Shown one piece after another: positions 107 through 5,487 of a stretch of DNA of 64,000 bases. The stretch lies in assembly GCA_007376205.1 (NCBI GenBank), contig VMFU01000001.1:30661-94660 (forward strand), in the 5' to 3' direction. The position numbers and the translations under genes are program-made. The notes beneath the pieces are model-generated. The model was not told the origin of the DNA. It saw only the letters and a program-made list of their open reading frames with translations, and did no database searches. Within the stretch, counting starts at the first letter, position 1; every line of letters begins with the position of its first letter. Source of the DNA: Candidatus Peregrinibacteria bacterium Gr01-1014_25. GTDB taxonomy: Bacteria; Patescibacteriota; Gracilibacteria; Peribacterales; Peribacteraceae.

Positions 107-868
107 TCATGTGTACTTTTTCCCGTACAACTCGGCAACCGGTGAGAGCGTGGATTTCTGGGGGATCTTTTCCGCAAGGACTTTGCCGCGGCGCTTGTAC
201 ACCCGATAGGCGGCGGCACGGGGCTTGGACGTGAGGATTTTGAAATACTTTCCATCGATGAATGCCACGGCGCAGTGATTTTCGACGGCGATGCCGATGC
301 CTCCGCGACGGGCGATCATATCCCGAAAATGCTTCCTGCGTGGCACTCCCCGCGTGTTGCTGTCGTAGTGGGGACAATGCACGCCGCGAATCAATCCCAG
401 TCCTTTGACATTGATGTACCGCCACTTCCGCGGATTGTAGAACGACATCGAATCGCTGTGCCCCGACGCAAACCAGCAGATCGATCCCGCGCTGACGCCG
501 CAGAGCACGATGCCTTTCCGGTAGGCGGCCGCAAGCATGCGGTCGACGCCGAGGCGCCGCCAGATGCGCATCATCTTCAGCGTGTTGCCTCCTCCGACGT
601 ACACGATGTCCGCCGACAGGATTTTCCTCCGCATCGCCGCGGGCGCCGGCGTTTTCCCGACGAGATGGAGCACGTCCGTCCTACATCGCAGCACGTCACC
701 GAAGTACCGTTGGATATTGCGCCAGTATCCTGCCGAGTCCGAACTGGCCGTCGGAATGAACAGGAGTCGCGGGTGCTTCTTGCCGGAAAGACGGATGATT
801 TCCTCATCGATGGCCTTCGTCGCTCTCTTGCGAATGTCGCCGCCGCCAATGGCCACCAGTTTTTTCAT
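107..868 (-). CDS. Peptidase S51 (dipeptidase E/cyanophycinase-like) family protein
   Basis: MKKLVAIGGGDIRKR..., LLFIPTASSD, YVGGGNTLKMM, GVSAGSICW nucleophile-elbow motif. Confidence 0.85.
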   Translation of the reverse strand: MKKLVAIGGGDIRKRATKAIDEEIIRLSGKKHPRLLFIPTASSDSAGYWRNIQRYFGDVLRCRTDVLHLVGKTPAPAAMRRKILSADIVYVGGGNTLKMMRIWRRLGVDRMLAAAYRKGIVLCGVSAGSICWFASGHSDSMSFYNPRKWRYINVKGLGLIRGVHCPHYDSNTRGVPRRKHFRDMIARRGGIGIAVENHCAVAFIDGKYFKILTSKPRAAAYRVYKRRGKVLAEKIPQKSTLSPVAELYGKKYT

Positions 869-1059
869 GAATCGACGCGGGAATATTCCCACCATACACT
901 TCCCTCCATCAGCAGTGGTTCGATTTGAGGGCGCAAAGGAGCCACTCGAGCAATCAGCCTGGCGTTCTGCCCGTAATCCTCGAATAGCGCGGCATCTGGA
1001 AAAAAACGTCCGTCAATTGCTTCTGTGCTGCCCTCATACATGCGAAAAACCGGGGGGTC

Positions 1060-1088
1060 TTGCCTTCCTTGCCTTCTATTTCTAGAAT
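1060..1088 (+). promoter_or_regulatory. Candidate sigma70-type promoter for the histone-like gene
   Basis: TTGCCT - 17 nt - TAGAAT, about 32 nt upstream of ATG 1121. Confidence 0.4.
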
Positions 1089-1120
1089 CTCACCTGTTTT
1101 TAGTACTTTTCCCCCTTCCT

Positions 1121-1480
1121 ATGTCCTACGTTGTTGCTTCCAAGGTCAAGGAATACGTGAACGGCAAAAACATGATGGCCGCCGGCGACCTCGCCGACCA
1201 TTTGAGCAAGCAGGTCGAGATGTGGTTGGCTCAAGGCCTCAAGGCCGCTCAAGCCAACGACCGCAAGACGGTCCGCGGCTGCGACATTCTCGTCTTCTCC
1301 CCGGGCAAGACGCCGTTCGTTGTCGCCTCGAAGATCAAGGAATACGTGAACGGCAAAAACATGATGGCCTCCGGCGACCTCGCCGACTACGCGAGCGGCC
1401 TGGTCGAATGGCTCCTCTCGATGGCCTGCGACCGCTGCAAGTCCAACGACCGCAAGACGGTCCGCGGCGGCGACCTTTGA
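1121..1480 (+). CDS. Bacterial histone-fold doublet (two fused histone folds, tail-less)
   Basis: 119 aa with two copies of VVASK(V/I)KEYVNGKNMMA(A/S)GDLAD...NDRKTVRGxD(I/L), matching the archaeal/Bdellovibrio-type histone fold (helix1-GDxxxxL helix2-RKTVRxxD). Confidence 0.85.
   Translation: MSYVVASKVKEYVNGKNMMAAGDLADHLSKQVEMWLAQGLKAAQANDRKTVRGCDILVFSPGKTPFVVASKIKEYVNGKNMMASGDLADYASGLVEWLLSMACDRCKSNDRKTVRGGDL
1146..1470 (+). repeat. Direct repeat at 189-nt offset inside the histone doublet gene
   Basis: 35 nt identical (1146-1180 vs 1335-1369), then 1 mismatch and 17 identical nt; 26 nt CCAACGACCGCAAGACGGTCCGCGGC identical at 1254 and 1443. Confidence 0.9.
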
Positions 1481-1503: not shown

Positions 1504-1532
1504 ACAGGGCGGCTGAAGGCCGCCCTGTTTGT
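1504..1532 (+). terminator. Rho-independent-like terminator after the histone doublet
   Basis: Perfect 10-bp stem ACAGGGCGGC-TGAAG-GCCGCCCTGT followed by TTGT. Confidence 0.7.
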
Positions 1533-1587: not shown

Positions 1588-2976
1588 ATGAAAATTGCCG
1601 TGATCGGCACGGGCTACGTCGGTCTGGTCAGTGCCGCATGCTTCGCGGAACTGGGTCATACCGTGTACGGCATCGACATCGACCCGAAGAAGGTCGAGAA
1701 GCTACAGGCGGGCATTCCCACGATCTACGAACCCGGACTGGAGGAGATTCTCAAGCGCGGCCTTGAGCACAAGCGTCTGACGTTCTCCACAGACATTCAT
1801 GACGCGTTGCCGCACGTCGAGGTCGTCTTCTGCGCGGTGGCTACGCCGCAGGGCGAGAATCACCAGGCCGATTTGCGCGCGGTATTCGCCGTGGCGGACG
1901 ACGTCGGCCGGCACGCGATGCGCGGCCTGGTATTCGTGAACAAGTCGACGGTGCCCGTCGGCACGGGAAAGAAGTGCGAGGAACGGATCGCGGCGATCCT
2001 GAAGGAGCGCGGCGTGGACTTCCGCATCCCCGTCATCAGCAACCCCGAATTCCTGCGCGAAGGCATGGCGGTGACCGATACGACGATGCCGGAGCGGATC
2101 GTCGTGGGCATCAATGACGACGCTATGAGTTATGAGCCGCAAGCTATGAGCGATGGGGAAAATACTCACAGCTCACAGCTCACAGCTCACAGCCCCATCA
2201 ACGCCAGAGCGTTGATGGAAGAGCTCTACCGTCCCATCACGCGCATCGGCAAGCCGCTGGTTTTCATGGGCCGCGAGAGCGCCGAAATCGTGAAGTACGC
2301 GTCGAACGCCTTCCTCGCGACGAAGATCAGCTTCATCAACATGCTAACGGAATTCTGCGAGAAGACCGGCGCCAACATCCGCGACGTCGCGCGCGGCATG
2401 GGACTCGACAGCCGCATCGGATCACGGTTCCTCCACGCGGGGATCGGTTATGGCGGCAGTTGCTTTCCGAAGGACGTGAAGGCGCTCATGGCGACGGCGA
2501 AGGAGTACGATCTCGATTTCGCCATCATCGAAGCGACGGACGAGATCAATGCGTACCAGCGCAAACGATTCTTCGACAAGATCCTTAAGGCGCTGCCGCC
2601 GAAGGCGACGGTGTGCGTGTGGGGTTTGGCCTTCAAGCCGAAGACCGACGACATGCGCGATGCGCCCAGCTTGGACCTGATTCCCCTGCTCCTGCAATCC
2701 GGCCATGCCGTGCGGACGTACGATCCGGCGGCGATGGAGAACGCGAAAAAACTCTTACCCGACAGCGTCGCATTCTGCACGAATCCCCTCGAGGCGGCGC
2801 AGAAGGCCGATGCGGTCGTCCTCCTCACCGAATGGGACGAATTCCGCGGTGTGGATCTGGCGGAACTGGCGAAAGCCATGAAGGGCAAAGACCTCTTCGA
2901 CGGACGCAATGTCTACGAACCGAAGGAGGTGATGGATGCGAGATTGGCGTACCATGGGATCGGGATTGATTCATAG
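1588..2976 (+). CDS. ugd: UDP-glucose 6-dehydrogenase (with internal heptamer-repeat insertion)
   Basis: MKIAVIGTGYVGLVSAACFAELGH, NPEFLREG, GIGYGGSCFPKD, WGLAFKPKTDDMRDAPS. Confidence 0.93.
   Translation: MKIAVIGTGYVGLVSAACFAELGHTVYGIDIDPKKVEKLQAGIPTIYEPGLEEILKRGLEHKRLTFSTDIHDALPHVEVVFCAVATPQGENHQADLRAVFAVADDVGRHAMRGLVFVNKSTVPVGTGKKCEERIAAILKERGVDFRIPVISNPEFLREGMAVTDTTMPERIVVGINDDAMSYEPQAMSDGENTHSSQLTAHSPINARALMEELYRPITRIGKPLVFMGRESAEIVKYASNAFLATKISFINMLTEFCEKTGANIRDVARGMGLDSRIGSRFLHAGIGYGGSCFPKDVKALMATAKEYDLDFAIIEATDEINAYQRKRFFDKILKALPPKATVCVWGLAFKPKTDDMRDAPSLDLIPLLLQSGHAVRTYDPAAMENAKKLLPDSVAFCTNPLEAAQKADAVVLLTEWDEFRGVDLAELAKAMKGKDLFDGRNVYEPKEVMDARLAYHGIGIDS
2122..2193 (+). repeat. Heptameric repeat element translated within ugd
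   Basis: gctatga gttatga gccgcaa gctatga gcgatgg ggaaaat actcaca gctcaca gctcaca gctcaca; encodes AMSYEPQAMSDGENTHSSQLTAHS. Confidence 0.85.
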
Positions 2977-4349: not shown

Positions 4350-4539
4350 GAGAAACCATGTCCTTTCTGTTAGGCATGCCGTTGGAACCAAAGAACGCCT
4401 CGCGGTGGCATGAAAAAGTTGCGAGGCCGGGGAGCATATCAAGCCCGGGTTTACGCCGCCAGTGAATCGGCCATCCCGGTCCTTGACCAGATCTGGGCTT
4501 CTTTCGTTTGCGCGGCTTCTTCGATATCGTTGCGAAGAC

Positions 4540-5487
4540 ATGCGCATTCTCTTAACAGGCGCCGCAGGCTTCATCGGCTTCCATACCGCAACGGCGCTCC
4601 TCGCGCGCGGGGACGAGGTCGTTGGATTGGATAACATGAGCCCCTACTACGACCCCAAGCTGAAGAAAGACCGGCTGCAGTATCTGCAGGGCAAGAAGGG
4701 ATTTACATTCATGGAGGGCGACATCCGTGACCGCGCTACGGTCAAGAAGGCGATGGAGGGCTGCGACCGCGTTTGCCATCTCGCCGCGCTCGCCGGGGTC
4801 CGCTACGCGTTCGATCACCCCGACGAGTACATCGCGATCAACATCACGGGGTTCTTCAACGTCCTCGACGAAGTCCGGCTCCAGAAGATCCCGGGCCTCA
4901 TCTACGCCTCGTCCAGCTCCGTCTACGGCGGCAACACGACGTTCCCGTCCAAGGAAACCGACCGCACCGACGATCCGATTTCCCTCTACGGCCAAAACAA
5001 GAAGGACAACGAACTCCTTGCGCACACGTACCACAGGCTCTACGGAACGCACGTCACGGGGTTGCGATTCTTCACGGTCTACGGACCGTGGGGACGGCCC
5101 GACATGGCGCTGTTTCTATTCACGGAATCGCTGTTGCATGATCGGCCGCTCACCATCTTCGGCCACGGCAAGATGCAGCGCGACTTCACGTACGTCGACG
5201 ATATCGTGTCGGGCATCGTCGCCACGATCGACAAGAATTGCGAGGAGGAAGTATTCAACCTCGGCTGCGGCAAGACGGAGGAGCTGATGGACTACGTGAG
5301 GATGATTGAAGCCGCCTGCGGAAAGGAAGCCAAGAAGGAATTCCTCCCCATGCAACCGGGCGACACGACGAAGAGTGCGGCGGATATCACAAAGGCAAGG
5401 ACGATGCTCGGGTTCGATCCCCAGACGACGATCAAGGATGGTGTGCCAAAATTTGTAGAATGGTATCGCGGGTACTACAAGATCTAG
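4540..5487 (+). CDS. NAD-dependent epimerase, UDP-glucuronate 4-epimerase-like
   Basis: MRILLTGAAGFIGFHTATALLARGDEVVGLDNMSPYYDPKLKKDRL, SSSSVYGG, YGQNKK. Confidence 0.88.
   Translation: MRILLTGAAGFIGFHTATALLARGDEVVGLDNMSPYYDPKLKKDRLQYLQGKKGFTFMEGDIRDRATVKKAMEGCDRVCHLAALAGVRYAFDHPDEYIAINITGFFNVLDEVRLQKIPGLIYASSSSVYGGNTTFPSKETDRTDDPISLYGQNKKDNELLAHTYHRLYGTHVTGLRFFTVYGPWGRPDMALFLFTESLLHDRPLTIFGHGKMQRDFTYVDDIVSGIVATIDKNCEEEVFNLGCGKTEELMDYVRMIEAACGKEAKKEFLPMQPGDTTKSAADITKARTMLGFDPQTTIKDGVPKFVEWYRGYYKI

Follow-up and report, generated by a model that had tools for sequence, protein, structure and literature searches.

A putative DNA-binding histone doublet of the alpha3-truncated group in a Peribacteraceae bacterium, apparently derived from a fused singlet gene

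Analysis of a 64,000-nucleotide stretch of DNA (the whole of which is termed 'the window' below) from a Candidatus Peribacteraceae bacterium (Patescibacteria), the genome of which (G000) spans 1.12 Mb and is 99.9% complete, revealed a gene for a 119-residue protein that is predicted with high confidence to contain two histone folds in one chain, and to form an intramolecular pseudodimer. The reading that we favor, with a probability of roughly two in three, is that this product is a nucleoid protein created by the fusion of singlet histones of the face-to-face (FtF) type, that it binds DNA, and that two such doublets dock through their C-terminal halves only.

The gene and its predicted fold

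The features listed here all lie on the forward (+) strand of the window:

1060–1088 (+): sigma70-type promoter TTGCCT-17-TAGAAT, conserved 5' of singlets and doublets (sequence, promoter scan and family comparison)
1089–1120 (+): short pyrimidine-rich leader without a Shine-Dalgarno motif, conserved in the family (sequence and family comparison)
1121–1480 (+): histone doublet gene, 119 residues plus TGA stop (open reading frame, AlphaFold2, orthologues in four other Peribacteraceae)
1121–1288 (+): predicted N-terminal histone fold, residues 1–56, with alpha1 at 6–15, alpha2 at 24–45 and alpha3 at 53–56 (AlphaFold2 and residue alignment)
1289–1309 (+): linker LVFSPGK, residues 57–63 (doublets aligned with 56-residue singlets)
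1310–1477 (+): predicted C-terminal histone fold, residues 64–119, with helices at 69–77 and 87–108 (AlphaFold2 and residue alignment)
1504–1528 (+): 10-bp perfect hairpin ACAGGGCGGC tgaag GCCGCCCTGT, candidate terminator (read from the sequence)
1588–2976 (+): UDP-glucose dehydrogenase-like gene; syntenic marker at doublets and nearest singlets (gene-neighbourhood comparison)
4462–5487 (+): NAD-dependent sugar epimerase-like gene; second syntenic marker (gene-neighbourhood comparison)

The open reading frame runs from an ATG at 1121 to a TGA at 1478–1480, exactly as located in the initial annotation, which had described two copies of a single unit; that unit comprises 56 residues. The short linker described there was also present, but its proposed extent (LVFSPGKTPF) was revised to a linker proper of about 7–10 residues (LVFSPGK TPF). 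The AlphaFold2 model, calculated for the doublet from 36 aligned relatives (pLDDT 95.0, pTM 0.86), displayed two helix-helix-helix units, in which alpha2 of the N-half is 22 residues in length and the C-half stops within one turn. When that model was compared with the PDB using Foldseek, the highest-ranking whole-chain match was the histone doublet of Methanopyrus kandleri, 1F1E (E 1.4e-4, TM 0.68), followed by fused H2A-H2B chains and viral doublets, in agreement with the earlier proposal of two histone folds in one chain. The M. kandleri protein (about 150 residues) and the haloarchaeal HstA are nonetheless archaeal proteins that lie near the nucleosomal histones and are not alpha3-truncated. 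A single chain of HLp (9qt0) superposed on one half of the doublet with an rmsd of 0.8 A and 38% identity.

In most orthologues the two halves are 79–88% identical across helix 1 and loop 1 and 73–82% identical in loop 2, and only 22–33% identical in helix 2. Each half of the window protein carries a net charge of +1 to +2, a lower value than the +2 to +4 of most singlets. Every Peribacteraceae doublet half has gained a tryptophan midway along helix 2, W35 in the N-half and, offset from it, W97 in the C-half; the core singlets have none there, and these residues may lock the core of the pseudo-dimer.

The candidate promoter lies precisely where it had been proposed (TTGCCT at 1060–1065, a 17-nucleotide spacer, and TAGAAT at 1083–1088). 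Of 61 related loci, 48 have a corresponding element, TTGC..N15-19..TA(G/C)(A/G)AT, at a near-constant distance of 28–35 nucleotides 5' of the ATG, as compared with 0.07% in shuffled sequences. The codon adaptation of the doublet gene exceeds that of 41 of the 42 other window genes and, together with the conserved promoter, suggests strong expression. Its leader is 85% pyrimidine, and the mean purine fraction of the leader is 0.18 across Peribacteraceae histone genes. Among window genes of 150 residues or more, a Shine-Dalgarno-like motif precedes only 4 of 42, and translation in this host lineage may start without one. Of the terminator that had been proposed at 1504–1532, the perfect hairpin (1504–1528) was present; it was not among the calls of a terminator scan, and its T tail is therefore weak.

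Family membership, distribution and origin

Profile searches against solved proteins matched the doublet to HLp (1.7e-14), HBb (2e-13) and HTkC (1e-11), all of which are alpha3-truncated histones, and to nucleosomal histones only at about 5e-3. The doublet is thus a member of the alpha3-truncated group, with HLp slightly ahead of Bd0055/HBb as its nearest characterised relative. Histones of that group are described as having an alpha3 of 3–4 residues, a shortened alpha2, and an RxTxxxxD motif in loop 2 (PMC11390915); a short alpha3 and shortened alpha2 are found in the AlphaFold2 prediction, and the motif is present twice (R48-T50-D55 and R111-T113-D118) and is invariant in six doublets. The two halves differ in the FtF tetramer residues (R48 and N52 in HMM numbering), both of which are found in the C-half; the N-half has the asparagine (N46) but an alanine (A42) in place of the arginine. 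The HBb subgroup is defined by the absence of both residues, and the doublet, with the asparagine in both halves and the arginine in one, falls outside it. The Bd0055-type match proposed in the initial annotation was revised for the C-half, the signature of which is FtF/HLp-like rather than Bd0055-like.

The two Pfam profiles named in that annotation gave a near miss and no match: PF00808 scored 20.7 bits (E 5e-4), just under its curated cut-off of 21.4, and DUF1931 (PF09123) did not match the window protein up to E 10. The relationship to PF00808 and the archaeal nucleosomal histones is therefore one at the superfamily level only, and a search of the host genome with PF00808 yielded zero matches because the family sits just below that profile's reach. 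DUF1931 was also absent from the host genome, and membership of that family was ruled out. Both halves exceeded 100 bits when scored with a small profile for the Peribacteraceae histone family, a result that is not independent because the profile was partly built from both halves.

Comparison with individual members of the group indicated how the doublet departs from them. HLp, an FtF histone from Leptospira perolatii (PDB 9QT0-9QT2), is tetrameric and wraps DNA (PMC12701072); it shares the R..N.R tetramer residues with the C-half, as well as the RxTxxxxD loop, but is a single fold that forms a tetramer of identical chains and bears an N-terminal tail, whereas the doublet has two folds, no tail, and has lost the N-half arginine. 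HBb/Bd0055 from Bdellovibrio bacteriovorus (PDB 8FVX, 8CMP; PMC10627809, PMC11317129) resembles the doublet in its alpha3-truncated fold, its RKTV loop and its dimeric state, but has a single fold and lacks equivalents of R48 and N52, both of which are present in the doublet's C-half.

Among the 359 searched genomes of the class, a histone was found in 68 of 74 Peribacteraceae genomes and in two genomes of one further family (f5, three genomes covered), and in none of the other families of the class; a few further families elsewhere in the phylum have more distantly related singlets. Nearly all of the Peribacteraceae histones are 56-residue singlets (MSYVVASKxKELVKKxGMMSSGDLxDAxS...RAKANGRKTVRxEDL). 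Doublets were found in three of the 74 genomes (G000, G001 and G029, the last a single-contig genome), in two more Peribacteraceae records from another collection (L078 and L080) and, as a sixth, 121-residue example, in family f5 (G060); no second histone was found in the doublet-bearing genomes. An assembly artefact was ruled out by the five doublets other than that of the window (four from Peribacteraceae), since the full-length gene recurs across five independent Peribacteraceae assemblies, including a single-contig genome. A viral origin was also dropped, as the viral contigs searched contained no relative. Contigs labelled Uhrbacteria, Euryarchaeota and Rokubacteria (L078, L101 and L121) bear Peribacteraceae histones, the first of them together with Peribacteraceae gene order; these MAG contigs have probably been binned or labelled wrongly. 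A number of Peribacteraceae singlets (L034, L042 and L044-L049) have diverged strongly, several of them being rich in cysteine and ending in RQTVYGCDC, and possibly represent a second type of histone in this family.

Phylogenetic analysis of single folds together with separate doublet halves (56 alignment columns), as had been proposed with the initial annotation, grouped the five Peribacteraceae N-halves (100/98) and the five C-halves (91/86), joined both clades (94/60), and nested the joint clade among Peribacteraceae singlets, closest to those of genomes G028 and G035 (100/95). These two genomes share with those of the doublets the placement of the histone gene directly upstream of the UDP-glucose dehydrogenase and epimerase genes. 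The shared locus, the nested position and the lack of a second histone in the doublet-bearing genomes thus argue that a Peribacteraceae singlet gene was duplicated and fused in place. The singlets, which share the doublet's promoter, would represent its direct ancestor type: they have one fold and an intact R42 and are expected to form homodimers, whereas the doublet has two folds and A42 in its N-half. The f5 doublet, which is likewise predicted to have two folds (pLDDT 89), branches elsewhere, has a different linker and a short C-terminal extension, lacks the UGD/epimerase neighbourhood, and is probably of separate origin; a single origin of all doublets was disfavoured by the tree, with an AU p of 0.24 on 56 columns.

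The window gene itself might be read as a recent tandem-duplication artefact or a private mutation of one genome, given that 27 of the 32 identical residues of its halves share a codon, where window codon usage predicts 13.4 (none of 5000 draws reached the observed count) and a stronger codon bias 17.4 (p 0.0004). That account is scarcely credible and is already contradicted by the orthologues: differences between halves at particular positions are common to the five Peribacteraceae doublets, which also cluster by half, so the duplication is old. A tree in which the window genome underwent its own recent duplication was 14.9 lnL units worse (AU p 0.20 on 56 columns). The simplest reading of codon likeness within an old duplication is that local gene conversion later homogenised the parts encoding helix 1 and loop 2, whereas the identity in helix 2 fell to 22% by divergence; the halves of the G029 doublet, unlike those of the window gene, have a third-position identity of 0.42 in the first part.

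The docking face and competing readings of function

The HLp tetramer is held together by R49, S52 and N53 of one chain with R55, T61 and F63 of the facing chain (PMC12701072), and the FtF tetramer arginine is reported to grip the carboxylate at the C-terminus of the subunit opposite (PMC12701072, PMC11390915). Residues R49/N53/R55/T61/F63 of HLp map to A42/N46/R48/C54/I56 in the N-half and to R105/N109/R111/G117/L119 in the C-half. At the tetramer-face position 42, arginine is found in all 46 core singlets and all five C-halves, and alanine in all five N-halves; the N-half keeps N46, R48, T50 and D55, and the C-half keeps R105, N109, R111 and D118. The C-half also ends in D-L as the singlets do, and hence has a free C-terminus, with the full FtF set present in all five Peribacteraceae doublets. 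Because only this half retains a free C-terminus after fusion, an arginine facing an N-half would have nothing to grip; its loss from the N-half is thus sensible if like faces like, and its retention in the C-half fits docking of C to C', and not of N to C'. Counting against this arrangement, the substitution at position 42 amounts to a single event, on a branch with other changes as well. The N-half changes A39G, K44Q/N and G47D, at sites conserved in singlets, cluster with A42 at the end of helix 2 and in loop 2 of the N-half, and G47D also occurs in some C-halves.

The DNA-contact positions (A6, S7, K8, K10, G22, K49, T50 and R52) and their C-half partners are mostly kept. The exceptions are K14 (K21 of HLp, a DNA contact), for which both halves have asparagine, and the C-half counterpart of position 8, where L078 has alanine instead of lysine. 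A covalent pseudo-dimer that binds DNA is the best reading of the sequence, and the earlier suggestion of a fused pseudo-dimer capable of binding or bending DNA is supported by the predicted two-fold chain and the contact motif in both halves; the loss of K14 and the net charge per half, lower than that of most singlets, weigh against it. As we envisage it, a 56-residue FtF-type (alpha3-truncated) singlet, standard in Peribacteraceae, would have been duplicated and fused in place to yield a nucleoid protein, the single chain of which is confidently predicted to fold onto itself. Both halves would contact the DNA backbone, through ASKxK in alpha1 and the K, T and R of the RKTVR loop, such that binding without sequence preference would be expected, followed by bending or wrapping. 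The halves would be non-equivalent, the C-half carrying the full docking set (R105, N109, R111, D118 and the C-terminal carboxylate) and the N-half A42; two doublets would join C-half to C-half, leaving the N-half side weakened or open, and that pair would form a tetramer-equivalent that curves DNA. The residue logic of this arrangement is borrowed from HLp and other FtF histones. A stronger version, in which the protein is an obligate FtF pseudo-heterodimer and the first bacterial doublet that is a true chromatin protein, with both halves binding DNA and one docking, is tentative and falls somewhat short of probable; if true, a symmetric torus that wraps DNA became, through fusion, an open particle with only one docking side.

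The doublet might alternatively act as a stand-alone, HBb-like bender that does not dock, in which case the loss of R42 would mark the loss of the tetramer and R105 would be kept for some other reason, such as intramolecular packing. The minimal DNA-binding unit is already provided by the fusion, the tetramer face of the N-half is degraded, and HBb, without either FtF residue, is reported to function as a dimer (PMC11390915, PMC12701072); a pure dimer, however, would not need the full FtF set and free D-L terminus seen in five of five C-halves, and this behavior is possible but rather unlikely. We consider unlikely a closed, HLp-like torus of two doublets, in which A42 would be tolerated since N46 and R48 suffice. 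N46, R48 and D55 are indeed invariant in both halves in the doublet alignment, and the f5 doublet retains the arginine in both halves, but the otherwise invariant presence of that residue in the core singlets implies that its loss was probably not neutral for such a torus. The DUF1931 pseudodimers (Aq_328, 1R4V; Thermus, 1WWI) likewise contain two histone folds per bacterial chain, and the doublet matches 1WWI in overall architecture (TM 0.63); they nevertheless form a different sequence family, reportedly without DNA-binding residues (PMC12701072), whereas the doublet has the DNA-contact motif in both halves, and neither the protein nor its genome has a DUF1931 match, all of which renders a pseudodimer of that type, lacking a chromatin role, highly improbable.

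Relation to known doublets, and neighbouring features

The initial annotation had regarded fused doublets as mainly archaeal, a view that needs qualification: bacterial doublets are known as a size class (PMC10627809) and as DUF1931 proteins, although the latter reportedly have no DNA-binding residues (PMC12701072, PMC13088155). The accessible text of the histone literature contained no mention of an alpha3-type doublet, and open-access text searches returned nothing relevant on histones of Patescibacteria or CPR, some of which may be listed without comment in the supplementary tables of PMC10627809. Bacterial doublets and alpha3 histones were thus known before, and their combination was not found described; new as well is the observation that the arginine of the face-to-face tetramer is kept in singlets and C-halves and replaced by alanine in N-halves.

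One published proposal regards histone doublets as a step in the evolution of heterodimeric histones (PMC13088155). Here related genomes have an unfused ancestor type and a fused descendant at one and the same locus, individual residues point to specialisation of the halves, and the step is therefore testable by comparison of singlet and doublet proteins. Histones are, in addition, a family-wide trait in these Patescibacteria (Peribacteraceae), alongside HU, which is also encoded in the host genome, so that the histone is not its sole architectural protein.

Elsewhere in the window, the upstream neighbour of the doublet gene (107–895, minus strand) reads like what we presume to be a peptidase E/cyanophycinase-type (S51) protein. 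Within the UDP-glucose dehydrogenase gene, a low-complexity stretch (2120–2225) contains four in-frame copies of the 7-mer CTCACAG; the same 27–30 bp array was found at six other places in the genome, and appears to be a dispersed short repeat that landed inside the coding sequence.
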